Positions 9,795 through 41,660 are shown, numbered from the stretch's first letter. The stretch is DNA of 46,643 nt from Opitutales bacterium (GCA_007134215.1 SLLG01000151.1:1-46643), one strand, 5' to 3'. A program made the numbers and translations. Notes: generated by a model not told the origin, from the letters alone.

Positions 9795-9805
9795 ACACCT
9801 CAGTT

Positions 9806-12800
9806 ATGAACATACCTATCCCCACCCCCCGAAATCGTGGGCTCAAGCGTTTGCTTGGTTCCATCGGCGCGGCCTGCGCCCTTGTCGCCGCTCCTCTCGC
9901 CGCCCAGCCAACCGACAACCCGGCCGCGACGCACTATGGCCTCGACACCGGATATCCGGCATGGACCGACAGTATCCAGTGGAACAACGTCATCGACATG
10001 TCGGCCTACACCAACGGTGCCAACCATTTCGAACGCTTCGAAAACGCGCGCGACGAACTCCACGCCCAAGGCGGCGGGGTTCTCTATTACCCGGCGGGCG
10101 TTTATGAGTTCGACCTTCCGGACATGGGCTTCGGCCCCGGCATCGGTCCGATGAGCCGCGGCCTCATGCTCAAGAGCGGCGTCGTCATCCGCGGGGAAAC
10201 GCCGGCGGCCAACCAAGCCGTGGTGCGCACGCAGGCCTTCCCGGATTTCGCGCGCGGGGTGGAAACCAACCTTGAGCCGGAGACGGTTTTTGTGTTCCCG
10301 ACGCACATGCGCGGGACCGATCCCGTGACAGCGGAACCCAACACCGCGGGTGAGGTGCCCTCCCATTGGAGTTTCATCGGCATGACCGTTGGCGACGGCG
10401 AGGACACCTTGGCCGACGTGAACAACATCGGTGTGGTCAATGTCACCCTCGACGGCGGCACCGTCTACTGGGGCTACCACACCAACCGGCCCGAGCGGAT
10501 GGACGAAGGCAACTGGTTCGGTCCTCCGTGGAAAAACACACCGGTGTTCGCTCCCGAAGGCGAGACTTGGGCTAGCCACAAGCCGGACGGCACGCACTAC
10601 ATGCATGCCCTTCACGGCGCGGCGGGCTGGCACCAGCCAGTTCTGGCGGGCAGCGGTCGCCTTGTCATGGGGGTCCGCATCAACAACGGCGCGCCTTGGA
10701 ACGATATGTACCACGCCGACCGGAAAAGCCCGTCGAACACGGTCCTTCCGGACGATCACTTTGCCGACTACCGATTCACGGGCCGTATTTCGATCCACGG
10801 CAGTGATATTTTCGTGGCGAACAATTCCCTCCCGCAGCCGACCAAAAACTTCGTGCACCGCGCCATGACGAGCAATGAGGGCGAACAGGTTGTCCTCTTT
10901 GACTATTCGGCCCACATCGGCATCGACATCAACAAAAGCAATTACGGTGGCAAACAGGATGCGGTGACCGTGCAGACTCCGGGCTCGGGCTATTACTTCC
11001 GTAATATCGTCGTGCGCGACAACTACATCTTCAACCGTGGCAACAAGAACTTCGAGGTCTCGGGCAAGTGGGTCTCCCTTGTCAACAACCATGCCGAAAA
11101 GTGGTATTGGGGTAACTATTTCCCGACCGCTTACATCGCAAACCCCGAAGCATATCCGGGAGCGGACCCTGATGGATTTATCAGCGCCGGGGGCCGTATT
11201 TTTGACGGGCATCGCTGGCAGGTCGGAATAACCGCCTCGGACTACATGAACCGCGGTTACGATTTGGGCGGACGCAATGTCTGGGTGCATGAATGCACTG
11301 TGATCAACACGGGTTCGGCCGGCAACGACGGCGAAGGCATCATGGGCCAGCGCCACAACAACATTGAGACCTTCTCGTGGTCCTACACCTACAGCACCCA
11401 CGACACCGACAATTCCCTGGATGAAGCGCTCGGTGCGTATCCCGGCGGACCCATTGTGACACGGGCCGAAGGGTCAAAGTGGAGCGGGATTTACGACATG
11501 CACGCCTCCGGTTTTCTCGCCTTCAAAACGGGAGTTCGCACGCAAAACAACGGAACCATCGGCATCCTCAAGACGGAAAGTAACTGGATCCTTGATGTGA
11601 CGATCACGCCGAATCTCTTGCGGGGTCCCGGCGAGGGTGTGAGCTCTTCAGAGACTGCTCATGCCGCAGGCACCGACTACCTTCTCGGCGACCACACCGA
11701 TCCGGTGAGCGCGCCGGCGAATGTCCATGCCAGCGTCCTACCGAATGGCTACGGCATCGACATCACCTGGGAAGACACGGCCGACAATGAGATGGGCTTC
11801 CGCGTCGACCGCCGCGTCGACGGCGGCTCATGGAATGCCGTTGCCTACCGACCACGTCAGGGGCTCGGCAAGGAGTCCGGCGTGAGTCTCGGTTCGCCCT
11901 ATGTGGACGCGACCTACCCGTATGTGAACCCCGAGCGCTGGGTTGATTATACGGCACCGCTCGGTTCCGCCGACCTGATCGAATACCGTGTGGTTGCCTT
12001 CAACTACAACGACGACGACTCCACGGGCGTGAGCGACACCTTCGCCATCGGCGAGGCCGCGATCCCGGATGTTCCCGCCGACAATCCGGTGCATTCGGTC
12101 TACAGCCTCGACGACGGCTACCCGGCGTGGACCGGCGACGTCCGCTGGGACAACATTATCGACATGTCCGCGTACGCCAACGGCGACAACCACTTCGAGC
12201 GTTTCGAAAACGCGCGCGACGAACTGTACGCCGAAGGCGGCGGGGTTCTCTATTACCCGGCGGGCGAGTATTACTTCGACCTCCCGGATGTGGGCTACGG
12301 CCCGGGCATGGGCCCTACGAGCCGCGGCCTTATGCTCAAGAGCGGCGTGGTCATCCGCGGCGAAACGCCTGCGGACAACCAGGCGGTGGCGCGTGCGACG
12401 GAAGACACGACGCACCCTGACTTCGCCAACGACGTGGGGCACAACCTCAATCCGGGCACGGTCTTCGTCTTCCCGACGCACATGCGCGGGATCGATCCGG
12501 ATTCAGGCGAACCGAACTCCGCGGGCGAACTGCCCTCGCACTGGAGCTTCATCGGCATGATGGTGGGCGAAAACGAGGAAACCCTCGCTGACGTGCACAA
12601 CATCGGTGTGATCAATGTGACGCTCGAAGGCGGCACGATCTACTGGGGCTACCACACCAACCGTCCGGCGACGTTGCAGGAAGGCCGCTGGTTCAGCAAT
12701 GTGTGGAAGGATAACTGGCCGGCGTTCGCACCCCCGGAAGAGACATGGGCGGGACACACGCCCGACGGCACGCACTACATGCACTCGATCCACGGCGCGC

Positions 12801-19381: not shown

Positions 19382-19591
19382 TGCGGAACGGCGTGCGTGT
19401 GCGGCGTCGGTGCGGGCCGGCGGGTGGTCGCGGGCGCCCGGCCGTTTCGGGTCGGGCGCTGAAGCAGCCCGACTACTTTGGGGGCGGGTTCCGGCTACGT
19501 TTTTGTTCGCTTCGTCCGCCGGTCTCAGTTGCCGTCGGTCATGAACCGGTATTCCGTGACCTGGGCGTAGACCTCGCCGGGGCGGAGGATG
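19382..19591 (-). repeat. Long inverted repeat, right copy
   Basis: This is the counterpart, in inverse orientation, of 14705-14926. It overlaps the last 22 codons of the intact aldose 1-epimerase gene and continues through its downstream region. This copy is in the original context because the gene is whole here. Confidence 0.85.
19451..19473. repeat. REP-like hairpin after the catabolic operon
   Basis: GTCGGGC and GCCCGAC pair around GCTGAAGCA. It lies about 50 bases after the mutarotase stop codon and may protect the 3' end of, or help end, the long minus-strand transcript; no intrinsic terminator with a T-run was seen. Confidence 0.5.
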
Positions 19592-20673
19592 GTGTTCGGA
19601 AAATCGGGCTGGTTGGGTGAATCCGGGTAGTGCTGGGCCTCAAGGCAGAATCCGCTGCGGTGTTCGTAGGCGACGCCGCGTTTGCCGACGAGGGTGCCGT
19701 CGAGGAAATTGCCGCCGTAGAACTGGAGTCCGGGCTCGGTGGTCCACACCTCCATGATGCGTCCGGTGGTGGGCTCGTAGACAAAGGCGGCCTTGGCAAG
19801 TTCGCCGGTTTGGTCGTCGAGTACCCAGTTGTGGTCGAAGCCCTGCCCGAAGCGCAGTTGCTCGTCGTCGCGGTTGACGCGGTGGGCGATGGCGACCGGC
19901 GTGGTTAGGTTGAAGGGCGTGTCGAAGACGGGCTTGAGTTCGCCGGTGGGGATGAGCCCCTCGTTCACGGGCGTGAAGCGGCGGGCGTGGATCATGATCT
20001 CGTGGCCGTTGATGTCGCCGTTGCCCTCGCCGCGCAGGTTGTAGTAGTTGTGCTGGGTGAGGTTGACGGGCGTGGCCTTGTCCGTCGTGGCTTCGTATTC
20101 GATGCGCAGGGCGTCGTCGTCGGTGAGCCAGTAGTGGACGGTGACGTCGAGGGTACCGGGGTAGCCTTCCTCGCCGTCGGGGCTGCGGTAGGTGAGGCGG
20201 AGGCCGCGGGCGTCATCGCGGTAGACGGGCGTGGCGTCCCACATGACTTTGTCGAAGCCGCGCTCTCCGCCGTGGAGGTGGGCGGGGATGCCGCCGGGTT
20301 CGTCGTTGGTGGCGAGCTGGTAGGTCTCGCCGTCGAGTTCGAAGCGCCCGTGCGCGATGCGGTTGCCGTAGCGGCCGATGAGGCAGCCGAAGTAGGGCGA
20401 CTTTTCCTCAAAGTCGGCGAAATTGTCGAAACCGAGAAGGATGTCGTCGAGTTCCCCGCCGCGGTCGGGCACGAGAAGGCGCACCATGGTGCCGCCGTAG
20501 TTCATGATCTCGGCGTGGAGGCCGTTGGCGTTGACCAGCGTGTAAAGGCGGACTTCTTCGCCGTCCTTGGTCGTGCCGAAGGGTTCGGAGGTGATCTCGC
20601 GTTCCATGGCGGGTTGACAGGCGGTGAGTGCAAGGGCTCCGGCGAGGAGCGGGAGGCGTTGTATTCTTTTCAT
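19525..20673 (-). CDS. Aldose 1-epimerase (mutarotase), lipoprotein
   Basis: The enzyme interconverts alpha and beta anomers of free aldoses. The 382-residue precursor has a lipoprotein signal with lipobox LTAC (C19), so it acts outside the cytoplasm, anchored to a membrane. Catalytic residues line up with GalM: H134 in AHLHGGERGF, H208 in NLTQHNYYNL and E345 in CLEAQHYPDSPN. It is the last gene of the minus-strand catabolic cluster, 41 bases after the BASS transporter gene. An outer location fits mutarotation of sugars freed by secreted hydrolases before uptake. The C-terminal codons are duplicated at 14707-14772. Confidence 0.93.
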   Translation of the reverse strand: MKRIQRLPLLAGALALTACQPAMEREITSEPFGTTKDGEEVRLYTLVNANGLHAEIMNYGGTMVRLLVPDRGGELDDILLGFDNFADFEEKSPYFGCLIGRYGNRIAHGRFELDGETYQLATNDEPGGIPAHLHGGERGFDKVMWDATPVYRDDARGLRLTYRSPDGEEGYPGTLDVTVHYWLTDDDALRIEYEATTDKATPVNLTQHNYYNLRGEGNGDINGHEIMIHARRFTPVNEGLIPTGELKPVFDTPFNLTTPVAIAHRVNRDDEQLRFGQGFDHNWVLDDQTGELAKAAFVYEPTTGRIMEVWTTEPGLQFYGGNFLDGTLVGKRGVAYEHRSGFCLEAQHYPDSPNQPDFPNTILRPGEVYAQVTEYRFMTDGN

Positions 20674-20714: not shown

Positions 20715-21986
20715 TCACTTGGGCGGGCGTTTGCTCCAGTAATTGGCGAGAATGGAGCCGGAGATATTCATCCACGGGCTGAAGACGGCGGCGGCGAGGC
20801 CCACTGTGCCGAGCTTGCCCATGGCACCGGCGAGACCGGAGGCCATGCCGCCGTTCTGGAGGCCGACTTCCAGCGCCATTGTGCGGGCGGAGCTGCGGTC
20901 GAGGCCGAAGGCGCGGCTCAGCCAGTAGCCGAAGAAATATCCCGACGTATTGTGGAGGACGGCGGCGAGAAAGAGGAGAAAACCGACCTCGAGGAGGTGG
21001 TCGCGCCCGGCGGCCGTCGTGACGAGCGTGAAGTAGACGATTCCGGCCATGGAAAAGTAGGGCATGACGGAGTCCAGCTTGGGGAGGCGGACGGTGAGGA
21101 AGTGGTAGCCGAGCCCGGCGAGAACCGCGCCCGCGAAAAACCCGAGGAGTTCGAGCGAGGTGTAGAGAGATTCCGGTACCGCGCCTTGCAGCCACGCCGC
21201 GCCGCCGAGGACGAGAAAGAGCAACCACGCGGCGGAGACCCCCGCTACGATGAAGACGCGCCGCCATCCCGCGTCGGAGGCGCGCTTGAGGTAGTCGTGC
21301 AACATGGCCGCGCCGATGGGGACGAGAACGATCTTCGCAATCTGCACCATCATGCCGATAAAGGCGATCTCAATGAGCGTGCCCGCGAAGACTTTCATGA
21401 GAAAGGGCGTCATGACCGGTGCGGCGAGGGTGGCAACTGCCGTCACCGTTACGGAGAGAACGAGGTTTGCCCGCGCGAGGTAGGCCATGACGTTGGAGGC
21501 GAGGCCGCTCGAACACGATCCGATGAGGATGATGCCGGCGGCAATCTCCATGGGAAAATAAAAGATCTTTGTGAGCGTGAACCCGACGACGGGCATGATG
21601 GAGAACTGGCAGAGCAGTCCGATGAGGACTCCGCGCGGGTGCGTGGCGACCCCACGCAGGTCGGCGAGGCGCATTTGCGTGCCCATGCCGAACATGACCA
21701 GCTGTACGACGAGGAGAATAAGCCACGGGCTGCGCATGTCGAAATTGCCCACCGTTAGGAAGGCGGCGGGGTAGACCATGGCTGCGATGACGGCGGCAAT
21801 GATCCAGCCGGTGTACTGGTAGGCGCGGAGGCCGGGGAGCGCGCCTAGGCCGATCGCCGTCCCGACGGCGGCGGCGACGCCCGCGGGCTGCGCGAGGCCA
21901 TCGGCACCTGCGAGGACAGCGCCGATGGCAATGACAAATGCGATACCCCCGAGGGCGAGAGACAACTGGCGGATACGGAAGAGCAC
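20715..21986 (-). CDS. Bile acid:sodium symporter (BASS) family transporter
   Basis: This 423-residue integral membrane protein is longer than the usual 300-330. About three extra N-terminal hydrophobic segments (before residue 95) precede the BASS core. The core holds the conserved MFGMGTQMRLADL and GSCSSGLASNVMAYLARAN regions and the EVGLQNGGMASGLA crossing-helix motif that carries the sodium-site Glu and Gln. BASS proteins import organic anions with sodium; in this setting a sugar acid or oxidised sugar is a reasonable guess. The start codon is GTG. It begins six bases after the racemase-family gene. Confidence 0.88.
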   Translation of the reverse strand: MLFRIRQLSLALGGIAFVIAIGAVLAGADGLAQPAGVAAAVGTAIGLGALPGLRAYQYTGWIIAAVIAAMVYPAAFLTVGNFDMRSPWLILLVVQLVMFGMGTQMRLADLRGVATHPRGVLIGLLCQFSIMPVVGFTLTKIFYFPMEIAAGIILIGSCSSGLASNVMAYLARANLVLSVTVTAVATLAAPVMTPFLMKVFAGTLIEIAFIGMMVQIAKIVLVPIGAAMLHDYLKRASDAGWRRVFIVAGVSAAWLLFLVLGGAAWLQGAVPESLYTSLELLGFFAGAVLAGLGYHFLTVRLPKLDSVMPYFSMAGIVYFTLVTTAAGRDHLLEVGFLLFLAAVLHNTSGYFFGYWLSRAFGLDRSSARTMALEVGLQNGGMASGLAGAMGKLGTVGLAAAVFSPWMNISGSILANYWSKRPPK

Positions 21987-21992
21987 GGATCG

Positions 21993-22682
21993 CTATTTCT
22001 TGTTTCCGCGTTCGCCGGGGGCAAAGATTCCGGCGAGGTAGCGCATGGCAAGGGGAGGGCTGGCGAGAATGGGAATGCGTTTTTCTTCTTCCGCGAGCGT
22101 GTCGACGACCCTTGCCATGGAGGCTTGGGCGAGGACGATGACGTCGACTTCGCGCGAGAGCGCCCGCAGGGCCTTCGAGACCATGGAGTCATGCGTTGCG
22201 GCGTCTCCGCTCATGAGGGCGTCGAAAGCACCCTCGCAGAGACGCGCTTCAATGCGGACCTCGCGTCCGGCGGTGTCGGCCCGGCGTTCGACAAGGTCGG
22301 CGGTGGGATCGAGGGTGGTGGGCAGTGTCGCAATGACGCCGATGCGCTTGCCCGTGCGGACTGCCTCGTCGGCCATGGGCTGGTCGACACGCAGGACGGG
22401 GACGGCCGTGAAGGGAGCGGAAGCTTCCACGGCGGGGCCGATGGAGGAGCAGGTGACCATGATGTAGTCGGCGCCCGCGCTCTCCGCCGAGGCAATGTGC
22501 CCGGCGACGCGACGCGCGTTTTGCGGCGTGAGCGTGTTCCGTGCGATCACATCGCGGATGAGGCTGTCGTCCGCGATGTTGAAGACGTTCACGCCGGGGA
22601 GGTGTTCCGCGCAGAGTTTTTGGAACACCGGTACCAGGGTAGCCGACGTATGGACAAGGGCGAGTGTGCTTGGATGGTTCAT
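21993..22682 (-). CDS. Asp/Glu/hydantoin racemase-family protein with a single catalytic Cys
   Basis: The 229-residue protein has the two-lobed racemase fold pattern. The first active-site cysteine is C78 in MVTCSSIGPA. The equivalent of the second cysteine, expected near residue 187 in a GCT- or LAC-like motif, reads VLAQASMARV and has no Cys. Family members with one cysteine, such as arylmalonate decarboxylase, do not racemise but decarboxylate; this protein keeps the other cysteine of the pair. The role is therefore open: an isomerase, decarboxylase or hydrolase step on a sugar acid. Its ATG overlaps the stop of the DUF1537 kinase (ATGA), implying a shared pathway. The frame is open well upstream, but that stretch overlaps the kinase and is not coding. 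Confidence 0.82.
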   Translation of the reverse strand: MNHPSTLALVHTSATLVPVFQKLCAEHLPGVNVFNIADDSLIRDVIARNTLTPQNARRVAGHIASAESAGADYIMVTCSSIGPAVEASAPFTAVPVLRVDQPMADEAVRTGKRIGVIATLPTTLDPTADLVERRADTAGREVRIEARLCEGAFDALMSGDAATHDSMVSKALRALSREVDVIVLAQASMARVVDTLAEEEKRIPILASPPLAMRYLAGIFAPGERGNKK

Positions 22683-24013
22683 TTTACGAAAATTACGGGG
22701 CGGGAATCGATTCCCGCGGCGGTGGAGAAGAAGCGGTCGTCCCCCACTTGTCCTCCCTTGAAGATGACTTCGGTGCCATGGATATGCGGATTCTTTGAAC
22801 GCGCCAGGCACAGCGGTGCGCCCGCCCGGAAACGCGCGGCGACATCGACGGCGTCGATCCCGAGGGCACGGGCGGCGTGTCCGGAGGTGTCGCCGCCGGC
22901 AATCACAACACGCCCGGTCGCTGTGTTCCGGAGGACGGCGTCGGCACACTGCCCGAGTGCGGCACCGAGGACACGGGCGGAATCCTGCGCGCCGGGCACC
23001 GCCTCGCCGAGTGCATCGGTATGGAGGATGACGTTCTTCCCCTTGGCAATGGAATCGATGGCGGCGCGGACGGACCCGCGGATGGCGTTGTCCCGCTCCG
23101 CCGGGTCGAGAAGGCGGGGAACATCCAGGGCGTGCAGCGCGAATCCCGTGTCGCGCGCATGGCGTATCTGCGCGGCGGTGACCGGAGAGCGGCTGCCGCA
23201 GAGGACGAGAAGCGGGGCGGCCGGTTTCTCCGCTTCGAGGGCATCGAAGTTGCGCTTAGGAGCCGCCGAGACAAGTGCCCTTTCCACGGAAGAAGATCCG
23301 ACGGAAAAGAGTGGCTGGTTTTCGGCCGCGGCAGTGGCAAGAACTTCGCCGACTTTCCGGACGTGGTCGTCGTGGAGAGCGTCAAAGAGGATAGTGCCGA
23401 AGCCGTTCTGCGTTAGCGAATCAATTTTGCGGATGATTTCCGCGACCGGTCTCTCCAGATCAAGGACATCAATGAGGCCGGTCCGGTGGCTGATTTGATG
23501 GGCAAGGTGCAGGCGCAGGTCGCTCTCTGTCGCGGGGGTGACGGGGTGAGACCTCATCGAGGGATGGCGGTCGAGCCGGTGGATCTCGCCCGTGCCTCCC
23601 GTTCCCATGCGGGCAAAGAGGTTTCCGAAGACGCAATAGCGCCCGAGAGCGGGTGCGCCGACGAGGACCGGGATCCATGCGTTCGGGAAGGTATTCCGCC
23701 CGATTTGTATGGCTTTGCCGATACTGCCGGTTTCGGGGGATGAATCGAAGGTCGAACAGACTTTGTAGTGGATGAATCCGGGTGAGAGTCCGCGGAGGAT
23801 GGCAAAGGCGGGGCGCAGTTCGTCCTCCATCGCTTCGGTGGGGAGGGAGCGGCTGATTCCCGCGATGCCGACGGCGTCGAACCCGCGGCATTCATCCAGC
23901 GCGGCTGGATCGGGCAGGCGCATGAAGAGACGCGCTTTCCAGCCCGCGAGGGCGACTTGTTCGAGCGCGTCCGTCGAACCCGTGAAGTCGTCGCCGTAGA
24001 AGCCGAGGATCAT
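22679..24013 (-). CDS. oiaK: DUF1537 four-carbon acid sugar kinase, candidate 3-oxo-isoapionate kinase
   Basis: This 444-residue protein is a member of the four-carbon acid sugar kinase family. The N-terminal substrate domain starts with YGDDFTGSTD (6-15). The C-terminal nucleotide-binding domain has GGDTSGHAARALG (from 373), a GAPLC segment and the terminal FKGGQVG motif. DUF1537 kinases phosphorylate tetronate-type acids (DtnK, LtnK, OtnK) or 3-oxo-isoapionate (OiaK). The partner enzyme decides between these: here it is a RuBisCO-like protein, with which it overlaps by four bases (ATGA), and no aldolase or PdxA-type dehydrogenase is present. That pairing is known from oxidative D-apiose catabolism. 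The symbol is a context-based proposal. Confidence 0.85.
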   Translation of the reverse strand: MILGFYGDDFTGSTDALEQVALAGWKARLFMRLPDPAALDECRGFDAVGIAGISRSLPTEAMEDELRPAFAILRGLSPGFIHYKVCSTFDSSPETGSIGKAIQIGRNTFPNAWIPVLVGAPALGRYCVFGNLFARMGTGGTGEIHRLDRHPSMRSHPVTPATESDLRLHLAHQISHRTGLIDVLDLERPVAEIIRKIDSLTQNGFGTILFDALHDDHVRKVGEVLATAAAENQPLFSVGSSSVERALVSAAPKRNFDALEAEKPAAPLLVLCGSRSPVTAAQIRHARDTGFALHALDVPRLLDPAERDNAIRGSVRAAIDSIAKGKNVILHTDALGEAVPGAQDSARVLGAALGQCADAVLRNTATGRVVIAGGDTSGHAARALGIDAVDVAARFRAGAPLCLARSKNPHIHGTEVIFKGGQVGDDRFFSTAAGIDSRPVIFVK

Positions 24014-25257
24014 CCTTTCCCTCCGAATTTAGCGATGGATCTAGCGAGTTCAGGATGACGGCGGCCCGCCTCTTCAAGGGAGAGGCCCGCGACGGCGGCT
24101 TCCCATGCTTGCCGAAGCGCCCGCACGCCCCCGGCGGGTCCGTCGGGATGGGCCATGATACCGCCTCCCGCCATGTAGAGGAGATCGAGCGTGCGCGTGC
24201 GCCGCCATGTCTCCGGGGCCTGCCCGCCCCATTGTCCGGATGAGACCACGGGCATGACGGAGTGCCCGCCGAGGAAGGGTTCGAGGCAGGACTCAATGGA
24301 ATGCACCACGGAGTCGTCGGGCTCCCAAAACTTGTTGGCGATGCCGTTGACGTGGATTTGGTCGACGCCCGCGAGCCGCCAAAGCTTCTGGTAGGCGCGG
24401 AAGTCGATGCCCAGGAGCGGGTGGCGGTTGAGCATGCCCCAGCCGTTGCGGTGCGCGTGGACGGCGAGTTCACCGCGGTCGCAGACCGCCTTGGCGGCGG
24501 CGAGCCCGACACTGTTGATGCTGACCATCGCGCAGGTGCCTTCCGCGTTGACGATGGCGTCGTAGTGGCGGTGCATCGTATCCAGCTCGCCGCTGATATT
24601 GAAGGCATACATCACCCGCTTGCCGGCGCGGTCGGCGTGCCGCCGCAGGACGTCCATGACGGCGGAGACACGCTTGTTGAAAGGCGAGTGCGGAGGGTCG
24701 GCCATCAGCTCATCGTCCTTGATAAAGTCGACCCCGGCACCGGCGAGTTCGCTCACGATTGACGCCGTCTGTTCCGGACTGAGTCCCACGCTTGGCTTGA
24801 TGATTGTCCCGATGAGGGGCCGCCCTTCGACGCCGGTGAGACGGCGCGTGCCCGCGATGCCGAACGCGGGTCCGCGGAAGCGGTCTGCGAAAGAGGGAGG
24901 CACCTCGAAGTCCATGAGCTTGAGGCCGGAAAACTGTGCCAGTTCGTAGAGGTTGCCCTGCAGCGTGGAAACCAAGGTGGGCAGGTTGTACCCGAAATTC
25001 TCGACCGACCATGAAACGGTGACGTCGGCGCGCCGGTAGCGGCTGCCGGGAGGGCGACTGCCGGGAAGCGAGGGAACTTCCGCGGCGTTGCGCTCGGTCA
25101 CACTCTCGACGCGGGCCCGAAAGCGGTTGCGCAGCGTTTCGTCCTCACCGGGGACTTCGACAAACGTGCCGGAGGATTGTTCGCCCGCGAGCGATTCGGC
25201 GGCCTTGTGGACGTCTCCGGGGGTTTCGATACGGTATGTGGCGCGGACCCGTTCCAT
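24010..25257 (-). CDS. oiaX: RuBisCO-like protein (form IV), candidate 3-oxo-isoapionate-4-phosphate decarboxylase
   Basis: This 415-residue protein has the RuBisCO large-subunit fold. The loop-1 lysine is K154 in GTIIKPSVGL (K175 of spinach). The metal site K180-D182-E183 in FIKDDELM is complete, including the lysine that is carbamylated in RuBisCO. H269 in HAHRNGWGM matches H294, K309 in IANKFWE matches loop-6 K334, and a phosphate-site GGGIMAHPDG is present near 364. The second lysine of the KPK motif is Ser, so it is not a carboxylase. Form IV members include MtnW enolases, methylthioribulose isomerases and OiaX, which decarboxylates 3-oxo-isoapionate 4-phosphate to L-erythrulose 1-phosphate. 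The overlapping DUF1537 kinase favours OiaX. Start: ATG two bases after the rhamnosidase stop; the longer open frame lies on that gene. Confidence 0.88.
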   Translation of the reverse strand: MERVRATYRIETPGDVHKAAESLAGEQSSGTFVEVPGEDETLRNRFRARVESVTERNAAEVPSLPGSRPPGSRYRRADVTVSWSVENFGYNLPTLVSTLQGNLYELAQFSGLKLMDFEVPPSFADRFRGPAFGIAGTRRLTGVEGRPLIGTIIKPSVGLSPEQTASIVSELAGAGVDFIKDDELMADPPHSPFNKRVSAVMDVLRRHADRAGKRVMYAFNISGELDTMHRHYDAIVNAEGTCAMVSINSVGLAAAKAVCDRGELAVHAHRNGWGMLNRHPLLGIDFRAYQKLWRLAGVDQIHVNGIANKFWEPDDSVVHSIESCLEPFLGGHSVMPVVSSGQWGGQAPETWRRTRTLDLLYMAGGGIMAHPDGPAGGVRALRQAWEAAVAGLSLEEAGRRHPELARSIAKFGGKG

Positions 25258-25259
25258 CG

Positions 25260-27986
25260 TCAGACACCGCTCCATGTGCTTTCGAATGTGTGGGTACCTG
25301 CCTCTGCATCGACAATGACATGCCGTCCTTCGCGCGGAAGGTCGTCCGGCAAAGGTTTGCCGTCGGCGGCGGGGCGCGTACCGGGATCGGCGGGGATGAA
25401 GGCGCGCGCGGAGGTGTTGGCGGGCACATGGACAGTCCAGTGCAGGCGGTCGCCCTCGATGCGCCACTCGCTGCGGATTTCGCCGTGGGTACTGCGGTAG
25501 CGCGTCTTGGCGAACCCGATGCGGGCGTCCGGCCACGGTTTGAGGATGAACCGCTGGAAGCCGGGGTGTTCCGGGTCGGTCTCGATCCCGGCGACATGCC
25601 GGAAGAACCACTCGCCGATGGAGCCGAGCGAGTAGTGATTGAAGGAATTCATATGCGGGTTGAAGAACCCCTCTTCCTCGGTCCAGCCGTTCCAGCGCTC
25701 CCAGATGGTGGTCGCCCCGTGCTTCACCGGATACAGCCACGAGGGGTAGTCATCCTGAAGGAGGAGCTTGTAGGCGACGTCGGCGTAGCCGTATTCCGTG
25801 AGGACAGGATTGAGGTAGCGGATGCCGATGAAGCCGGTGCTAAGGTGCCAGTCGAGCTTGCGGATGTTGTCGACAAGGTGTTCGGCGGCGCGCGCCCGGA
25901 CATCCTCCGGGAGGAGGTTCATGGCGAGCGCGAGGAGGTAGGCCGTTTGTGTTTCGACATTGAGGCGTCCGTCGCCGAGGTGGAATTCCTTTTGAAAGGC
26001 GTCGCGCACCGTTGCGAACATTGCCTCGAAGCGCCCGGCGTCGGCGTCTTTGCCGACCGCACGCGCCATCTCCGCCATCTTGGCGGCGTCATCGGCCCAG
26101 AACGCCGTCGCAAGGAGGTTCTTCATCGGCGAGTGCGTGCGGAAACTCGTATCGGACGGAATGCAGAGCCAGTCGCCGTAATTGTTGCCGAGTTCGTTCT
26201 CGCGGATGCCGCGCGGATTCGTCCGTTCGAGGTAGTCGAGCCATGCCGTCATCGCCTTCCAGTGGCGCTCGGCCATGCGGGTGTCACCGTAAACCCGCCA
26301 CATTGTGTGGGGAATGATGACGCCGGCGTCGGCCCAGCCCGCGCCGCCGCCGAGGCCGTCGAGCCCGACGAAATTACCTTCGTCTTCGGGCAACCGCGGA
26401 GCGGTGTCGGGAAAGATTCCCTCCGGCGTCTGGGCGTCTTCGATGTCGATCATCCACTTCGTGAAGAAGGCCGCGATATCCATGTTGTAGGAAGCGGTGC
26501 GCATGAAGACTTCGGCGTCGCCCGTCCAGCCGAGGCGCTCGTCGCGCTGCGGGCAGTCGGTGGGGACGCTGAGGAAGTTGTCGCGCTGTGACCAGAGTCC
26601 GTTCAGCCAGAGCCGGTTGACCCCGGGATGCGCGCATTCGAAGTGCCCGGCAGGCGGGAGAGCGGAGTGCACAACGCATCCGATGGCGGTCTCATCCGTC
26701 GGCTCGGACGGCAGACCGTCGATTTCGAAGTATTGAAAGCCGTGGAAGGTGAACCGGGGTTCCCAGATTTCCTCGTTTTTGCCGTTGCAGATGTAGACAT
26801 CGGTCGCCTTGGCGCGGCGGAGGTTCTCTGTATACAGGTTGCCGTCGCCGTCGAGGCGTTCGCCGTGGCGGATCGTGAGCTTTGTGCCGGAGGGCGCGCG
26901 CACACGGAGGCGTACCCATCCGCTGATGTTCTGGCCGAGGTCGAAGAGGTATTTGTTTTTGGCGACGGGTTTGACGGACACGGGATGGATCGTCTGCGTG
27001 ATGCGGACGGGTTCGCTGCGCTGGGCGACGAGGGGGGCGTCGGGAGGATCGACGACCACGGCAGGGAGCCATGCGCTGTCATCGTAACCCGGTTGGTCGG
27101 CGCCTTTGTGCTCGCGGCGGGCGTCGTAGGTTTCGCCCATCATGAAGTCGGAGGCGAGGAGCGGGCCGGTATCGCAGCGCCACGAACTGTCGGAGGTGAC
27201 AGTGATGCGGTCACCGGACTCGAGTTCGAGTTCGATCCGGGCGGCCATGCTGTTACGGAACCCGTAGCGGCCGCGTGTTTCCTGCCAGCCCACGTAACCG
27301 CTCCACCACCCGTCGCCAAGCGTGGCGGCGAGGACATTCGGGCCCTCGCGCAGGAACGGGGTGATATCATAGGTCCGGTAATGGATGCGCTTGCGGTAGT
27401 CCGTCCACTCCGGGACGAATAGATCCTCGCTCACCGGGACCCCGCCGAGCGTCAAGTCGACAATCCCGCGTGCGCTTGCGTAAAGCGTCGCCCGGCGCAC
27501 GCCGGGGGGCACGTCGATGACTTTGCGGAAGCATGCGGGCGTGCCGGGCTTCGTCGCGGTGCCGGGCGATGCCCGGCGGTCGCGGGTGAAGACCGCGGGA
27601 TCGGCGGCGATCCATTCGGCCTGCCACTCGGAGGGGTCGAGGAGCCCCATGCTCCAAAACGCCGCGTCGGAGACGCGGGAATCCCCCTCGGCATCCCATA
27701 CCTCCACATTCCAGTAGCAATACTGCCGCGACACGAGTGGAATGCCCGCATAGACAATCTGCTGGGTTTGGCTGCTCTCCACGCATCCGCTGTCCCAGAG
27801 GTCGGCGGTGCCGGCGGCAAGCAATTCGGGCGTGGAGGCGACGCGGATGCGGTAAGCCGTCTGGCGGGCGCCGGCGCGGTCGGCTTCTATGTTCCAACCG
27901 AGGCGGGGTTCGCGTTCGTCGATGCCCCGCGGGCGCGTGAGGTATTCACAGCGCAGGGCAGTGGCTTGGAGAGGCGATTGATTCAT
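25260..27986 (-). CDS. Alpha-L-rhamnosidase, GH78, cytoplasmic
   Basis: This 908-residue protein hydrolyses terminal alpha-L-rhamnosyl residues. In order it has an N-terminal beta-sandwich (about 5-115), the Bac_rhamnosid_N carbohydrate-binding module (about 165-330), a beta-sandwich, an (alpha/alpha)6 catalytic barrel (about 445-800) and a C-terminal beta domain. The catalytic motif DCPQRDERLGWTGDAEVF is complete; E483 matches the general acid of studied GH78 enzymes. There is no signal peptide, so it acts on imported oligosaccharides or glycosides. It is the sixth gene of the minus-strand cluster. A strong hairpin (28008-28033) precedes it, so it may be expressed at a different level from the genes upstream. 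Confidence 0.93.
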   Translation of the reverse strand: MNQSPLQATALRCEYLTRPRGIDEREPRLGWNIEADRAGARQTAYRIRVASTPELLAAGTADLWDSGCVESSQTQQIVYAGIPLVSRQYCYWNVEVWDAEGDSRVSDAAFWSMGLLDPSEWQAEWIAADPAVFTRDRRASPGTATKPGTPACFRKVIDVPPGVRRATLYASARGIVDLTLGGVPVSEDLFVPEWTDYRKRIHYRTYDITPFLREGPNVLAATLGDGWWSGYVGWQETRGRYGFRNSMAARIELELESGDRITVTSDSSWRCDTGPLLASDFMMGETYDARREHKGADQPGYDDSAWLPAVVVDPPDAPLVAQRSEPVRITQTIHPVSVKPVAKNKYLFDLGQNISGWVRLRVRAPSGTKLTIRHGERLDGDGNLYTENLRRAKATDVYICNGKNEEIWEPRFTFHGFQYFEIDGLPSEPTDETAIGCVVHSALPPAGHFECAHPGVNRLWLNGLWSQRDNFLSVPTDCPQRDERLGWTGDAEVFMRTASYNMDIAAFFTKWMIDIEDAQTPEGIFPDTAPRLPEDEGNFVGLDGLGGGAGWADAGVIIPHTMWRVYGDTRMAERHWKAMTAWLDYLERTNPRGIRENELGNNYGDWLCIPSDTSFRTHSPMKNLLATAFWADDAAKMAEMARAVGKDADAGRFEAMFATVRDAFQKEFHLGDGRLNVETQTAYLLALAMNLLPEDVRARAAEHLVDNIRKLDWHLSTGFIGIRYLNPVLTEYGYADVAYKLLLQDDYPSWLYPVKHGATTIWERWNGWTEEEGFFNPHMNSFNHYSLGSIGEWFFRHVAGIETDPEHPGFQRFILKPWPDARIGFAKTRYRSTHGEIRSEWRIEGDRLHWTVHVPANTSARAFIPADPGTRPAADGKPLPDDLPREGRHVIVDAEAGTHTFESTWSGV

Positions 27987-28053: not shown

Positions 28054-30153
28054 TCAGCGGGCCGGAATCCAGATCGTCATGTCGGTGTCGCCACGGTTGC
28101 CCCAGGCGTAGTAGGGGATCAACTTCACATCGATCTCACGCGGGGCCGTTGCCTGGACCGGGCGGTAGAGTTCCTCGGGGCGCCAGTCGGGGCGCCGGAT
28201 CTGGAGGCCGGGAACCGTGAGGGTGACGAGGTCCGCGTTTTCAATGGTTTCGCGCTCTGCCTTGAAGTTTCCGGGCGAGTCCATGATGGAGAGAGCGACG
28301 TCTTCGATACGCACGTCGCCGGGAAGGTCGTTGCTCTCGATGCAGTAAACGAGCGGTCCGTTGCGTACGACAACTTGGTTGAAGGATTCTTCGACGAGCG
28401 GATTCGATTCCCACAGCGTGGGCTCGAAGGGAATCGTGAAGGAGACGACGTCGCCTGCCTTCCATTCGCGCGTGACTTCGGCATAGGTGCCGGGCCGGAG
28501 GGCGGGACCCTGCGGCACACCGTTGACCATGACGCGCCCGCTGCCCGCCGTGGCCCACGAGGGGATGCGCAGCTTGATGGTGATGGGGCGCTCGGGCGCT
28601 TCGTCGATCTTCAGTTTCACGGCGCCGTCCCAAGGGTAGTCGGTTTCCTGGCGGAGGCTGATGCGTCCGCCTTCCTGCCACTTTGTTTCCAACGTGCTCG
28701 CGCCGTAGAGTTGTACCCAAAGTGTGTCGGGCGAGAGCGTGTAGGCGTAGTTCTGCACCTGCGAGATGACACGGACGACATTCGGCGGGCAGCAGAAGCT
28801 GTAGGGGATGTTGGGCTCGCGCGTGCGCGACCAGCGCATGGGCCAGTCAAACTCGTGGTGCTTGCGCATGGGGTTGACGTAGAAGTAGTGCGTGCCGTCG
28901 AGGCTGATGCCGGGGAGCACGCCGTTGTACATGGCCTGCTCGAAAAGGTCGGCGTATTCAGGATCACCCGTGAGAGTGAGCATGCGCCACATCCACATGG
29001 CGTAGCCGATCGTCGCGCAGGTTTCGTTGTAAGCGGTGAGGAGCGGAAGCTGCCAGTCGCGCCCGTAGGCTTGGTGGACGAGCTGGATGCCGCGGTGGTC
29101 GGTTGAGCCGTCGGGGGAGGCTCCGTCGTAGAGCGCGCCGGTCATACCGGTGATGTAGAGTTTGCGTTGGGCGACGTTCTCGTGGATCTGGCGCAGTGTT
29201 TTGAAGAGAGTGCCGTCACCGGCCTCGGCAAAGACGTCGGCGACGCCCGCGTAGAGGTAGTTGGCGCGCACGGCGTGGCCCACGGCCTCGTCCATTTCGC
29301 GGAAGGGCACGCGGTCCTGGTTGTGGTCGCGCTTTTCCCGCACGTCGGCGCGCAGTTCGATCATCTGTTCGGCGGCCTCGAGGTAGCGCGGGTCGCGGAC
29401 GATACGGTAGATCTCCACGATGCCCATGTAGTGGGACGGGCAGATGGCATTGTTCGCGAGCGTGATGGGATCGTTCTTGTAGAGGTCGTAGATGTAGTCC
29501 GCCGCTTTGATACCCAGTTTGAGCATATTGTCCTTGCCCGTGACGCGGTGGTGCAGGGAGGCGGCGGTCATGAGGTGGCCCATGTTGTAGGTCTCGAAAT
29601 CCTCGCGCCGCTGGAACTCGACCCGTTCGTCGCTGCCGCGGCGCTGAGGGATGATCGTCATGGTGTGCAGGTAGCCGTCCTCGCGCTGGGCCTTACCCAC
29701 GACGTGGATGATGCGGTCCATGAGTTCGTCGAGTTCAGGATCGTCTGTGAGGGCGTAGACTTGGATGACCCCTTCGAACCACTTGAGAAAATCGCCGTCA
29801 TTGAAAACCGGCCCCTTGTGACTGTCGCCGGAGACCTTGTCGTGGTAGCCGGCGGCGAGGAGAAAGTTCGCCCATGCGTGGCTTTCTTCCTCGCTTTGGA
29901 AGATTTCCCACATGTAGGGAACCATGGAGTGCCGGCAGACGTCGAAGCGCTCGGCCCAGAAACCGTCCGTCCAGCGGGTGTCGCGCAGGCCCGGCATGTA
30001 CATGAGGGCGTAAGGCGACTTTCCGGTATCGACGAGGGAGTGGGCGTGTCCGCAACCGTGGTGGTCGCAGACATGCGCCGCGAGAGTGCCCGGAAGGGCG
30101 GCGGTGATCGCGGCCAGCGCCGCGCGGAACAGGTGAGGATGTAGTGCTTTCAT
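28054..30153 (-). CDS. GH127-family beta-L-arabinofuranosidase-like enzyme, secreted
   Basis: This 699-residue precursor has a signal peptide (cleavage near LAA-H27). The mature start has a Cys/His cluster (C29, HH, C34, HAH) that could bind metal. The (alpha/alpha)6 barrel carries the zinc and nucleophile residues of studied GH127 enzymes: E377 and C379 in NETCATIGY, and C454-C455 in FCCPPN. Such enzymes retain configuration and use a cysteine nucleophile; substrates are beta-L-arabinofuranosides and, in RG-II breakdown by Bacteroides, related L-configured furanoses such as aceric acid. It lies 32 bases after the FGGY kinase gene. The start was chosen at the ATG of the signal peptide, not the longer open frame. 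Confidence 0.88.
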   Translation of the reverse strand: MKALHPHLFRAALAAITAALPGTLAAHVCDHHGCGHAHSLVDTGKSPYALMYMPGLRDTRWTDGFWAERFDVCRHSMVPYMWEIFQSEEESHAWANFLLAAGYHDKVSGDSHKGPVFNDGDFLKWFEGVIQVYALTDDPELDELMDRIIHVVGKAQREDGYLHTMTIIPQRRGSDERVEFQRREDFETYNMGHLMTAASLHHRVTGKDNMLKLGIKAADYIYDLYKNDPITLANNAICPSHYMGIVEIYRIVRDPRYLEAAEQMIELRADVREKRDHNQDRVPFREMDEAVGHAVRANYLYAGVADVFAEAGDGTLFKTLRQIHENVAQRKLYITGMTGALYDGASPDGSTDHRGIQLVHQAYGRDWQLPLLTAYNETCATIGYAMWMWRMLTLTGDPEYADLFEQAMYNGVLPGISLDGTHYFYVNPMRKHHEFDWPMRWSRTREPNIPYSFCCPPNVVRVISQVQNYAYTLSPDTLWVQLYGASTLETKWQEGGRISLRQETDYPWDGAVKLKIDEAPERPITIKLRIPSWATAGSGRVMVNGVPQGPALRPGTYAEVTREWKAGDVVSFTIPFEPTLWESNPLVEESFNQVVVRNGPLVYCIESNDLPGDVRIEDVALSIMDSPGNFKAERETIENADLVTLTVPGLQIRRPDWRPEELYRPVQATAPREIDVKLIPYYAWGNRGDTDMTIWIPAR

Positions 30154-30185: not shown

Positions 30186-31667
30186 TTAGGCGAGTGTCTG
30201 GCGCAGGGCGTGGAGCCATCCGTTGTAGAGGCGTGCGGCTTCAGCTTCGGGGAGCTGGGGTGTGTAGACGCGTTCGTCGCGGGGCAGGGCGGCGATGGCG
30301 GCGGGGCCGTCGAGGCGGCCCGCGCCCCACATGCCCGCGAGGACGGCGCCGAGGGCGGAGCCGCCGGGCGCGCCGGCGGCGCGCAGTTCCACGCCGGTGA
30401 TGTCGGCGGTGAACTGCATGAGGAAGCTGTTGGCGGTGGGGCCGCCGTCGCCGTGCACGGCACGCACGGGTGCTCCGGCGTCTTCGGCCGTGGCGTCGAG
30501 GGCGTCGCGCAGCTGGTAGGCGATGGATTCGAGAGCGGCGCGCACGACGTGGCGTCGGTCGCTCTGCGTGCTCAGGCCGGTGAGGGCGGCGCGCGCGTCG
30601 GGCTTCCAGTGGGGCAGGCCGAGGCCGGTGAAGGCGGGCACGAGGTAGACTCCGCCGTTGTCGGGCAGGGAGCGGGCGATGCTCTCGGCTTCGGCGACGC
30701 CGGGGAGGATGCCGAGCTGGTCGCGCAGCCACACGAGGGTGGAGGCGGAGCTGATGATGATGCCCTCGAAGGCGTAGGTGGGTTTGCCGTCGTGGACCCA
30801 CGCGAGGGTGGTGAGCACGCCGCGGGCGGAGTCGCGGCGCTGCGGGCCGAGGGTCATGAGGATGGAGGAGCCGGTGCCGAAGGTGACTTTGGCTGCTCCG
30901 GGCTCGAAGCAGCGCTGCGCGAGGAGGGAGGCGTGGGAGTCGCCCATGACGCCCTGAATCGGGATGGCGCGTGGCAACAGCCCGCCGAGGTCGGTCTCGC
31001 CGAAGGCCGCGGTGCTGCCGCGGATTTCCGGGAGGGCGCGCCGGGGGACTTTCCACATCCCGCAGAGGTCTTCGTCCCAGCCGAGGGTGTCGATGTTGTA
31101 GAGGAGGGTGCGGCAGGCGTTGGTGTGGTCGGTGGCGAGGACTTTGCCGCCGGTGAGGGCGTGAATGAGGAAGGTGTCGACGGTGCCGGCCGCGGCGCTG
31201 CCGTCGGCGAGGCGCGCGGCGACGGTGGCGTCGTTTTCGACGAGCCACTGGAGCTTGGAGGCGGAGAAGTAGGGGTCGAGGCGCAGGCCGGTGCGCTGCG
31301 CGACGAGGTCTCCGTGCCCGGCTTCGATGTGCGCGTCGCAGAGGGGCGAGCCGCGGCGGCACTGCCAGACGACGGCGGGGGCGAGGGGCTCGCCGGTGTC
31401 GCGGTCGAAGACGACGACGGTCTCGCGCTGGTTGGTGAGACTCAGGGACCGGATGTCGTCGAGGCTGCCGCGGTGGCGGACGAGGAGGGCTTTGAGCGCG
31501 GCGAAGGTGTTGGCGCGGATTTCGGAGGGGTCGTGCTCGACCCAGCCGGGCTGCGGGTAGTGCTGGCGGTGTTCGCGCGATTCGCGGTCGAGCACGCGCC
31601 CCGCCGCGTCGAAGAGGAGGGCTTTGGTCGCGGAGGTGCTCTGGTCGATGGCGAGGAAGCGGGGCAT
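30186..31667 (-). CDS. apsK: FGGY-family carbohydrate kinase, glycerol-kinase-like; candidate D-apulose kinase
   Basis: This 493-residue protein has both FGGY domains: AIDQSTSATKAL at the N-terminus, the glycerol-kinase-like LTNQRET (77-83), catalytic base D243 in GVMGDSHASLLAQ, and FGTGSSILM in the ATPase core. It resembles GlpK more than XylB or RhaB, but there is no glycerol context. It sits one base after a split transketolase and near an L-fucose-isomerase-like gene. That set matches the non-oxidative D-apiose route, where apulose kinase makes D-apulose 4-phosphate. The symbol is a context-based proposal; another ketose or triose kinase remains possible. Confidence 0.85.
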   Translation of the reverse strand: MPRFLAIDQSTSATKALLFDAAGRVLDRESREHRQHYPQPGWVEHDPSEIRANTFAALKALLVRHRGSLDDIRSLSLTNQRETVVVFDRDTGEPLAPAVVWQCRRGSPLCDAHIEAGHGDLVAQRTGLRLDPYFSASKLQWLVENDATVAARLADGSAAAGTVDTFLIHALTGGKVLATDHTNACRTLLYNIDTLGWDEDLCGMWKVPRRALPEIRGSTAAFGETDLGGLLPRAIPIQGVMGDSHASLLAQRCFEPGAAKVTFGTGSSILMTLGPQRRDSARGVLTTLAWVHDGKPTYAFEGIIISSASTLVWLRDQLGILPGVAEAESIARSLPDNGGVYLVPAFTGLGLPHWKPDARAALTGLSTQSDRRHVVRAALESIAYQLRDALDATAEDAGAPVRAVHGDGGPTANSFLMQFTADITGVELRAAGAPGGSALGAVLAGMWGAGRLDGPAAIAALPRDERVYTPQLPEAEAARLYNGWLHALRQTLA

Positions 31668-31668
31668 C

Positions 31669-32691
31669 TCAGGCGGTTTGCGCGGCGGAGGACTGCGCGA
31701 GGGTGAGGGCGGTCTGCGCGAGGCCTTCCATGGTGAGGCCGTAGTGGCGGAAGATGTCGGCTTGGCTGCCGGTGACGGTGTACTCGTCGGGGATGGCGGC
31801 GGCGCGGAAGCGGCAGGGCATGCCCGCGGCGAGGATGAGCGCGGCGCAGGCTTCGCCGAGGCCGCCGTGGACCATGTGTTCTTCGGCGGTGACGACGGCG
31901 CGGCATTCGCGCGCGGCGGCGAGGACGGCGTCTTCGTCGAGGGGTTTGATGAAGGGCACGCTGAGGACGCGGCACTGCAGCCCTTCGGTGCGCGCGAGGT
32001 GTTCGGCGGCGAGGACGGCGTGGATGACGGTTTCGCCCGTGGCGATGAAGGCGAGGTCGCCGCCGTCGCGCAGCAGGCGCGCTTTGCCGCGCGCGAAGGG
32101 CTGCTCCGGGCACGGCAGGCTGAAAAGGGCGGCTTTGCCGAAGCGCAGGTAGAGGGGTGTCTGCGAGCGCGCGGCGAAGCGCACGGCTTCGGCGGCCTCG
32201 CGGTTGTCGGCGGGCGCGGCGATGTCGAGGTTGTTGAGCGCGCGCAGGGCGGCGAAGTCGTGGATGGAGTGGTGCGTGGAGCCGAGCGCGCCGTAGCTCA
32301 CGCCCGCGCTGATGCCGACGAGGCAGACGGGCCGGTCGGAGTAGGCGATGTCGTTTTTGACTTGCTCGAAGGAGCGCGCGGTGAGGAAGCAGGCGGGGGA
32401 GACGGCGAAGACGTTCTTCCCGGCGGAGGCAAGGCCCGCGGCGATGCCGACGAGGTTTTGCTCGGCGATGCCGACTTCGACGATCTGGCGCGGCAGGGCT
32501 TTGCCGAAGGGGCCGAGTTTGCCCGAGCCGCGCGAGTCGCTCGTCACGGCGAGGAGGTTGCCGTCGGCGCGGGCGAGTTCGAGGAGGGTCTCCGCGAAGA
32601 TTTCGAGGTTGGCGCGGCCAAGCTCGAGCCCGAGGGCGGCGGCGGTTTCGCGCGCGGCGGCGCTGTGCATGGGCGGGGCGGGGGCGCTCAC
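31669..32691 (-). CDS. aptB: Transketolase C-terminal half (Pyr plus C domains); candidate AptB
   Basis: This 340-residue protein covers the pyrimidine-binding and C-terminal domains of transketolase. The activating glutamate is E77 in VEVGIAEQNLVGIAAGLASA. With the N-terminal half encoded just upstream it should form a two-subunit thiamine-diphosphate enzyme that transfers two-carbon units from a ketose phosphate to an aldose phosphate. The start is a GTG that overlaps the stop of the N-terminal-half gene as GTGA, so the two halves are translationally coupled. Beside an FGGY kinase it fits apulose-4-phosphate transketolase; a split housekeeping or sulfo-sugar transketolase are alternatives. 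Confidence 0.87.
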   Translation of the reverse strand: MSAPAPPMHSAAARETAAALGLELGRANLEIFAETLLELARADGNLLAVTSDSRGSGKLGPFGKALPRQIVEVGIAEQNLVGIAAGLASAGKNVFAVSPACFLTARSFEQVKNDIAYSDRPVCLVGISAGVSYGALGSTHHSIHDFAALRALNNLDIAAPADNREAAEAVRFAARSQTPLYLRFGKAALFSLPCPEQPFARGKARLLRDGGDLAFIATGETVIHAVLAAEHLARTEGLQCRVLSVPFIKPLDEDAVLAAARECRAVVTAEEHMVHGGLGEACAALILAAGMPCRFRAAAIPDEYTVTGSQADIFRHYGLTMEGLAQTALTLAQSSAAQTA

Positions 32692-33539
32692 GCGGGCACC
32701 TCCTCCGCGAGGGCGGCGAGCTGCGCGTCGATTTCCGCGATCGCTGCGGCGTATTCTTCGTCATCGGGCACGCCGTGGTGCCATTTGCCGACGTCTTCCA
32801 TAAAGCTGATGCCGCGGCCCTTGCGCGTCATGGCGATGACGGCGGAGGGCTTGCCCGCCTCGAGGGGCTTTTCGAGCGCTTCGGTGAGGGCGGCGAAGTC
32901 GTGGCCGTCGACGCGGCGCACGGCCCAGCCGAAGGCGGCGAACTTTTCGTCGAGGGGCTCGTTGTTCATGACGTCGCGCGTGCGCCCCGTGATCTGCAGG
33001 GTGTTGCAGTCGACGATGGCGGTCAGGTTGTCGAGGCGGTAGTGCGCGCCCGACATGGCCGCCTCCCAGTTGGAGCCCTCCGCCAGTTCGCCGTCGCCGA
33101 GGAGCGTGAAGACGCGGTAGGGCGCGTCGTCGAGCTTGCCCGCCAGCGCCATGCCCGCGGCGACGGAGAGCCCGTGGCCGAGCGCGCCGGTGTTCTGCTC
33201 GACGCCCGGGACTTTGCGCGTGGGGTGTCCGACGAAGTGCGACTGGTAACGGCATAGCGTCTCCAGTTCGGACTCCGGGTAGAACCCGGCGTCGGCGAGG
33301 ACGACGAAGAGCGCCTCGACGGAGTGCCCCTTGCTCTGCACGTAGCGGTCGCGCAGGGGGTCGCCGAAGTTCTCCGGTGAGACATTGAGGACGCGGTTGT
33401 AGAGCACGTTGAGGATGTCCACGCAGGAGAGGCTGCCGCCGGTGTGGCCGGCCCCGGCGTCTTTGATCCACTTGAGCACGCTGCGGCGGTAGCGCAGCGA
33501 CTTCTCCGCGAGTCCGCGGTCGTTCGGTCGGTTTCGCAT
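32688..33539 (-). CDS. aptA: Transketolase N-terminal half (PP domain); candidate AptA
   Basis: This 283-residue protein is the diphosphate-binding domain of transketolase. AGHTGGSLSCVDILNVLY (30-47), SKGHSVEALF (69-78), GALGHGLSVAAGMAL (118-132) and the thiamine motif LLGDGELAEGSNWE to VDCN (147-179) are all present. It lies three bases after the isomerase-like gene and overlaps the C-terminal-half gene by four. Two-gene transketolases are common in carbohydrate islands and are distinct from the single-chain pentose-phosphate enzyme. Confidence 0.9.
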   Translation of the reverse strand: MRNRPNDRGLAEKSLRYRRSVLKWIKDAGAGHTGGSLSCVDILNVLYNRVLNVSPENFGDPLRDRYVQSKGHSVEALFVVLADAGFYPESELETLCRYQSHFVGHPTRKVPGVEQNTGALGHGLSVAAGMALAGKLDDAPYRVFTLLGDGELAEGSNWEAAMSGAHYRLDNLTAIVDCNTLQITGRTRDVMNNEPLDEKFAAFGWAVRRVDGHDFAALTEALEKPLEAGKPSAVIAMTRKGRGISFMEDVGKWHHGVPDDEEYAAAIAEIDAQLAALAEEVPA

Positions 33540-33542
33540 CGG

Positions 33543-34967
<1,425 letters not shown>

Positions 34968-35000
34968 GAAATAAAAATTGAAATAGAATCGTATGATGGC

Positions 35001-41615: not shown

Positions 41616-41660
41616 GGGCGGACCGGCGGTTGCGAATGAAAGTATCCACCTGATTTGATT

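Follow-up and report, generated by a model that had tools for sequence, protein, structure and literature searches.

What does a RuBisCO-like protein (RLP) do inside a sugar operon, and on which substrate does it act? The RLP considered here lies in the window, that is, the whole stretch of DNA analysed (46,643 nucleotides from an Opitutales bacterium), and no other gene of the RuBisCO family is present in the genome, which is 97% complete. We consider it reasonably likely that this protein serves as decarboxylase in a cassette for the catabolism of L-aceric acid (3-C-carboxy-5-deoxy-L-xylose), a branched acidic sugar found in rhamnogalacturonan-II (RG-II), the substrate being suggested by strong genomic linkage.

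Organization of the operon

The RLP gene is part of a run of about ten minus-strand genes, extending from 34970 down to 20715, that overlap or are separated by short gaps and are followed by a gene for a secreted aldose epimerase. Overlaps of 4 bp are found at two junctions, between the RLP and the kinase genes and between the kinase and the racemase-like genes. The first-pass annotation had described a sugar operon beside glycoside hydrolases in which the RLP gene overlaps that of a DUF1537 kinase, and both features are real, the hydrolases including GH127 and GH78. It had overlooked the racemase-like gene, the BASS gene and the aceric acid hydrolase. The genes are listed in reading order.

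33543..34970, minus strand: L-fucose-isomerase-like sugar isomerase, possibly an apiose isomerase (profile matches)
32688..33539, minus strand: split transketolase, ThDP-binding N-terminal subunit (profile matches)
31669..32691, minus strand: split transketolase, pyrimidine-binding and C-terminal subunit (profile matches)
30186..31667, minus strand: FGGY sugar kinase, possibly the apulose kinase of a parallel apiose branch (profile matches)
28054..30150, minus strand: GH127 of the BT_1003 (aceric acid hydrolase) clade, two genes upstream of the RLP (tree, NCBIfam, PDB match)
25260..27986, minus strand: GH78-type alpha-L-rhamnosidase (NCBIfam)
24010..25257, minus strand: RLP, OiaX-like; proposed 3-C-carboxy-5-deoxypentulose 1-phosphate decarboxylase (domains, NCBIfam scores, tree, residue alignment)
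22679..24013, minus strand: DUF1537 (SBD_N/NBD_C) acid-sugar kinase, OiaK-like (373 bits to OiaK, cut-off 700; 4-bp overlap with the RLP)
21993..22682, minus strand: Asp/Glu-racemase-fold protein, proposed aceric acid aldose-ketose isomerase (PF01177, conserved Cys78/Gln186; 4-bp overlap with the kinase)
20715..21986, minus strand: BASS-family (SBF) sodium-coupled organic anion transporter, proposed aceric acid importer (profile matches)
19525..20625, minus strand: aldose 1-epimerase-like protein with a lipoprotein signal, last gene of the run (adjoins the cassette elsewhere only in a close relative)

The isomerase, split transketolase and FGGY kinase genes (30186-34970) form a second conserved module in the operon, possibly for D-apiose, which is found beside the cassette in part of the Verrucomicrobiota and in a few Bacteroidota. 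The module presumably resembles the non-oxidative D-apiose route, which Carter and colleagues are said to have described in 2018 with an isomerase, a kinase and a transketolase. No PDB relative was found by sequence for the fucose-isomerase-like isomerase (33543-34970). As RG-II also contains apiose, likewise an unusual sugar, the operon may serve the use of both aceric acid and apiose. Elsewhere in the window, 41655-43115 encodes a secreted 486-aa putative glycoside hydrolase that adjoins an MFS_2 sugar transporter and shows weak similarity to DUF6298 and none to NCBIfam models or PDB entries, and 9710-14518 encodes a secreted 1602-aa protein with two long internal repeats.

Active-site residues of the RLP

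The RLP ORF comprises 415 aa, reading from 25257 to 24010 on the minus strand, and matches PF00016 (3.9e-67) and PF02788 (1.1e-08). Alignment with form I RuBisCO and with its own clade (82 rows) revealed that the protein retains K154 (RuBisCO K175), K180 (K201, the carbamylated lysine), D182 and E183 (D203 and E204), H269-R270 (H294-R295), H302 (H327) and K309 (K334), together with E26, T31, N102, S340 and the GGG phosphate loop. The departures from the RuBisCO active site are S156 in place of K177, F32 in place of W66 and Q342 in place of G381, with the other catalytic positions checked being kept, and these three changes are common to nearly all DUF1537-linked RLP relatives. The protein thus has both Pfam domains of the RuBisCO superfamily and, through the K177 to S and G381 to Q changes, the departing active site of form IV. 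The alignment agrees with the first-pass reading of a conserved core (K154, K180-D182-E183, H269 and K309) in which the KPK motif has become KPS. The serine of KPS is found in most RLPs that adjoin a DUF1537 kinase, and is therefore a family trait rather than a peculiarity of the window RLP. Only Q100, Q108, Y232 and L23 separate the window RLP clade from other DUF1537-linked RLPs, so that a different substrate is not proven by sequence alone. Most likely, the reaction of this enzyme gives off CO2 instead of fixing it.

Placement among OiaX-like proteins

The best NCBIfam model for the RLP was that of OiaX, the 3-oxo-isoapionate-4-phosphate decarboxylase (NF042437; Carter et al. 2018, cited in PMC6302742), with a score of 527.8 bits, below the curated cut-off of 700, while the MtnW model (TIGR03332) yielded 142.4 bits against a cut-off of 513.6. 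A profile search of 388 Verrucomicrobiota genomes found no OiaX equivalog at 700 bits or more. In a tree of 101 rows, all DUF1537-linked RLPs group together (support 96), and the window RLP lies inside a clade of 82 (98), the sister group of three rows annotated as OiaX and linked to apionate oxidoisomerase (ApnO, PF16896) (96); 80 loci were chosen as nearest matches, and their clustering in the tree is partly by construction, which does not hold for their shared gene context. ApnO-linked rows are also located at other places among the DUF1537-linked RLPs, so that the window clade, whose members come from Bacteroidota, Verrucomicrobiota, Planctomycetota and Balneolota, seems to have branched off from an OiaX-like stock. 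By score and tree position, the RLP belongs with the OiaX-like, DUF1537-kinase-linked RLPs but is not OiaX by the NCBIfam definition. This is the outcome of the phylogeny including OiaX that the first-pass annotation had called for, and it places the protein outside MtnW and the deep RLP clades. A methionine-salvage (MtnW) identity was rejected by score (142 versus 528 bits for OiaX) and by tree position.

The residues E60, N123 and H327 had been considered as a marker of a new substrate and were dropped, since two ApnO-linked rows (L029 and L049) share the window residues. OiaX-like RLPs were also observed on haloarchaeal megaplasmids of Halalkalicoccus (L029) and Halomarina (L050). In Halalkalicoccus the gene lies ahead of those for a DUF1537 kinase, ApnO and a GntP permease, whereas the Halomarina locus carries no annotation. 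On a Mariluticola halotolerans plasmid (L155:498-5918), the genes for MtnK and MtnA share an operon with a split DXS/transketolase-like pair and a divergent RLP, an arrangement suggestive of a methylthioribose to isoprenoid-type shunt.

A conserved cassette that lacks ApnO

We surveyed the neighbours within 10 kb of the 80 nearest RLP loci in named genomes of Bacteroidota, Verrucomicrobiota, Planctomycetota and Balneolota. A DUF1537 kinase was found at 76 of the 80 loci, a single-cysteine Asp/Glu-racemase-like gene likewise at 76/80 and a BASS transporter gene at 73/80, with several absences coinciding with contig ends. De novo clustering of the neighbouring ORFs gave, GH127 aside, no family nearly as constant, and hence no rival isomerase candidate stands out. 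At >350 bits, the racemase-like gene was confined to 12 of 388 Verrucomicrobiota genomes, and these are precisely the 12 that carry the RLP clade. The first-pass annotation had presented a single verrucomicrobial example; the cassette is in fact widespread, across four phyla and with cultured carriers such as Dyadobacter fermentans and Flavobacterium pectinovorum, and its RLPs are currently annotated under non-specific labels such as 'ribulose-bisphosphate carboxylase large subunit family protein'.

Distant racemase-like homologues (144-220 bits) occur in Verrucomicrobiota genomes without the RLP (G169:C10, G276:C297, G098:C29 and G114:C137). At nine loci, a gene for an enolase-superfamily sugar-acid dehydratase lies upstream of the RLP gene, directly so in L032:3924-5036, L034:8158-9360 and L036:10527-11690, and in L034 it is accompanied by altronate/galactarate-dehydratase-like and SDR genes. 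These dehydratase genes are not accounted for by an aceric acid pathway.

The racemase-like protein (21993-22682) matches the PF01177 fold, and its predicted model (pLDDT 94.6) retrieved the Asp/Glu/hydantoin racemase fold in a fold search. Cys78, at the first catalytic position, is invariant, and the second of the two catalytic cysteines of true racemases is absent, its position being occupied by an invariant glutamine (Gln186; 76/76). With one base rather than two, a 1,2-proton shift on a single face is a better fit than racemisation. Because it is the only constant candidate, we propose the protein as the aldose-ketose isomerase that the pathway would need; should the cassette act on aceric acid with the RLP as its decarboxylase, there is a good chance that this assignment is right. 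To our knowledge, no aldose isomerase has the Asp/Glu-racemase fold.

ApnO was found within 10 kb of the RLP at none of the 80 loci, and is absent from the window genome and from 11 of the 12 RLP-carrying Verrucomicrobiota genomes, while three control plasmids gave matches in the genome search. This observation bears on an alternative in which the RLP is an ordinary OiaX that decarboxylates 3-oxo-isoapionate 4-phosphate in the use of D-apionate or D-apiose, the 3-oxo-isoapionate being made by an enzyme other than ApnO. OiaX and OiaK are indeed the best NCBIfam matches of the RLP and the kinase, the window clade is sister to annotated OiaX rows, apiose is also an RG-II sugar and the upstream isomerase, kinase and split transketolase genes could serve it. 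However, both proteins fall short of the curated cut-offs of 700 (528 and 373 bits), the constant racemase-like partner could not perform an NAD-dependent oxidation, and the upstream module, itself absent near most cassette loci, would already consume apiose without OiaX. We regard this alternative as unlikely. A plain OiaX/apionate role was accordingly downgraded on the missing ApnO and the failed cut-offs, and of the first-pass leaning towards OiaX the OiaX-like placement stands, whereas the apionate or apiose role is less likely, as it requires ApnO and the partner genes point to aceric acid.

Association with aceric acid hydrolase genes

The best PDB match of the window GH127 is 5mqo, entitled 'Glycoside hydrolase BT_1003' in the fold search, with 678 bits, the next match having 339. 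BT1003 is an aceric acid hydrolase that acts on RG-II (PMC5698469, PMC10850190). In the tree built for GH127, BT_1003 lies within the group of cassette-linked GH127s (98/96), away from the beta-L-arabinofuranosidases. The only NCBIfam match of the window GH127 is 'aceric acid hydrolase' (NF049879), at 894 bits against a cut-off of 950; six of seven GH127s sampled beside cassettes in other phyla exceed this cut-off, those of Bacteroidota scoring 1044-1209.

A GH127 of the aceric-acid-hydrolase type lies within 10 kb of the RLP at 40 of the 80 loci, and 39 of the remaining 40 cassette genomes encode one elsewhere (30 above the cut-off), giving 79/80 genomes in total. Among the 388 Verrucomicrobiota genomes, the hydrolase is present at 870 bits or more in 14, among them every one of the 12 RLP carriers. 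When 186 genomes were sampled from Sphingobacteriales, the order of Pedobacter puniceum, it exceeded the cut-off in 22/22 RLP carriers versus 46/164 genomes without the RLP (Fisher 2e-11, with kinship ignored). Nearly every genome with the RLP thus also encodes the hydrolase. The converse does not hold, as the hydrolase also occurs without the RLP in those 46 Sphingobacteriales and in two Verrucomicrobiota (G143:C27 and G352:C88) that have no racemase-like gene either and may use another route or leave aceric acid unused. Other neighbours of the cassette (GH106, GH78 and GH2 beta-galactosidase) suit RG-II side chains. A Croceibacterium plasmid locus (L028) in which a GH127 adjoins the RLP was dropped as support, its GH127 being a distant relative that scores only 87 bits to the aceric acid hydrolase model.

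Co-occurrence with the hydrolase could mark RG-II use in general, since RG-II degraders release several odd sugars together, and the cassette might then serve a different acidic constituent of RG-II or pectin (such as Dha, Kdo or an aldonate), with the racemase-like protein performing a 2-oxo to 3-oxo tautomerisation and the RLP decarboxylating a linear 3-oxo acid phosphate. Such a substrate would fit the sialidase-family, GH28 and lyase genes near some loci and the dehydratase genes before the RLP in nine, and also the ability of DUF1537 kinases to phosphorylate linear acids such as 3-oxo-tetronate. However, each of these genes occurs in a minority of loci, compared with GH127 in 79/80 genomes; linear 3-oxo acid phosphates are as a rule the substrates of class II aldolase-type decarboxylases (OtnC type), and the known substrates of this OiaX-like group are branched acids. 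We judge this explanation improbable, more so than an ordinary OiaX, and conclude that the cassette probably acts on aceric acid.

Proposed pathway for aceric acid

In the pathway that we propose, GH127 would free aceric acid from RG-II and the BASS protein would take up the anion. The racemase-like protein would convert the aldose into the 2-ketose through an enediol; C3 of aceric acid is quaternary, so that C2-H is the only C-H adjoining the carbonyl. From the structure formulas, the resulting ketose, HOCH2-CO-C(OH)(COO-)-CHOH-CH3, would be 3-oxo-isoapionate plus one methyl group. As OiaK phosphorylates and OiaX decarboxylates 3-oxo-isoapionate, the same two steps applied to the methylated compound would lead to 5-deoxypentulose 1-phosphate. 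The DUF1537 kinase would thus phosphorylate the C1-OH of the ketose, and the RLP, with a carbamylated K180 and Mg2+ on D182/E183, would decarboxylate the 2-hydroxy-3-oxo acid by enediolate chemistry as in RuBisCO and OiaX, giving CH2OP-CO-CHOH-CHOH-CH3. Decarboxylation of a phosphorylated branched oxo-acid, as the first-pass annotation had suggested, remains the best reading of the sequence evidence, and if aceric acid is indeed the substrate, the RLP is very probably the enzyme responsible. A class II aldolase might finally cut the product into DHAP and acetaldehyde. Such an aldol cleavage of 5-deoxyribulose 1-phosphate has been proposed in other organisms (PMC6302742). A complete, phylum-crossing pathway in which the single-cysteine isomerase, the DUF1537 kinase and the RLP convert aceric acid into CO2 and 5-deoxypentulose 1-phosphate is a tentative proposal, with somewhat less than an even chance of being correct in every part.

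In the window genome, a class II aldolase gene adjoins a CoA-acylating aldehyde dehydrogenase gene. At this locus (L174:1128-5234, on G000:C347), the aldolase has extended ends and lactate/malate dehydrogenase-like genes are also present, a layout that we take to resemble the planctomycete-verrucomicrobial bacterial microcompartment loci for fucose and rhamnose.

That the RLP instead acts on a sugar phosphate as an oxygenase or as an isomerase/enolase, in the manner of methionine salvage or of the D-hamamelose pathway reported elsewhere (cited in PMC8914248 and PMC10176493), is very improbable, for although RLPs are known to catalyse enolisation, isomerisation and oxygenation (PMC10176493), this one is distant from MtnW and, in the tree, from the MtnK/MtnA-linked RLP, its nearest characterised relative is a decarboxylase, and it retains the carbamate and carboxylate-handling residues of RuBisCO (K154, K309 and H269).

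Implications

Full-text searches, covering few of the subscription journals, yielded no account of how aceric acid is catabolised or of an RLP taking part. NCBIfam (June 2026) includes a model for the hydrolase, and none of the RLP, the kinase and the racemase-like protein reached the cut-off of any model. Standards of aceric acid, a rare sugar of RG-II, are difficult to come by (PMC12168206). The superfamily is already known; what we propose as new is the substrate and pathway of an OiaX-like RLP decarboxylase. The cassette would fill a gap between the known hydrolase that frees aceric acid and its use, for which we found no described bacterial route, and would complete part of the breakdown of RG-II, the most complex plant polysaccharide. 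If true, the proposal would add a substrate and reaction to the RuBisCO superfamily and a reaction to the Asp/Glu racemase fold, and would assign the RLP, DUF1537 kinase and racemase-like families a function open to testing in numerous Pedobacter, Flavobacterium, Dyadobacter, Opitutaceae and planctomycete genomes.

Comparison with known systems

The system closest to the window RLP is OiaX, with which it shares the full RuBisCO core, a KPS-type motif, an adjoining DUF1537 kinase, ~46-52% identity and a sister position in the tree. It differs in scoring under the curated cut-off, in the absence of ApnO, in its constant racemase-like and BASS partners and in its link to aceric acid hydrolase, and it retains E60, N123 and H327, which are altered in the three annotated OiaX rows used. 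The closest solved structure, the RubisCO-like protein 3nwr, matches over its full length (427 bits) and has an equal active-site set, but shows ~50% identity, carries a KPN motif and lies on a separate branch of the DUF1537-linked group. MtnW, the 2,3-diketo-5-methylthiopentyl-1-phosphate enolase (2oek, 2zvi), shares membership of the RuBisCO superfamily, but its model scores 142 bits against a cut-off of 514 and its gene context is different. The RLP of the D-hamamelose pathway, compared by description only, likewise acts in branched-sugar catabolism but is reported as an oxygenase (Kim et al. 2018, cited in PMC8914248 and PMC10176493). On the hydrolase side, the window and cassette-linked GH127s fall in the clade of Bacteroides thetaiotaomicron BT_1003 (5mqo); that organism is known for the release of aceric acid, whereas use of the freed sugar through an RLP, as proposed here, is not described in the literature searched.
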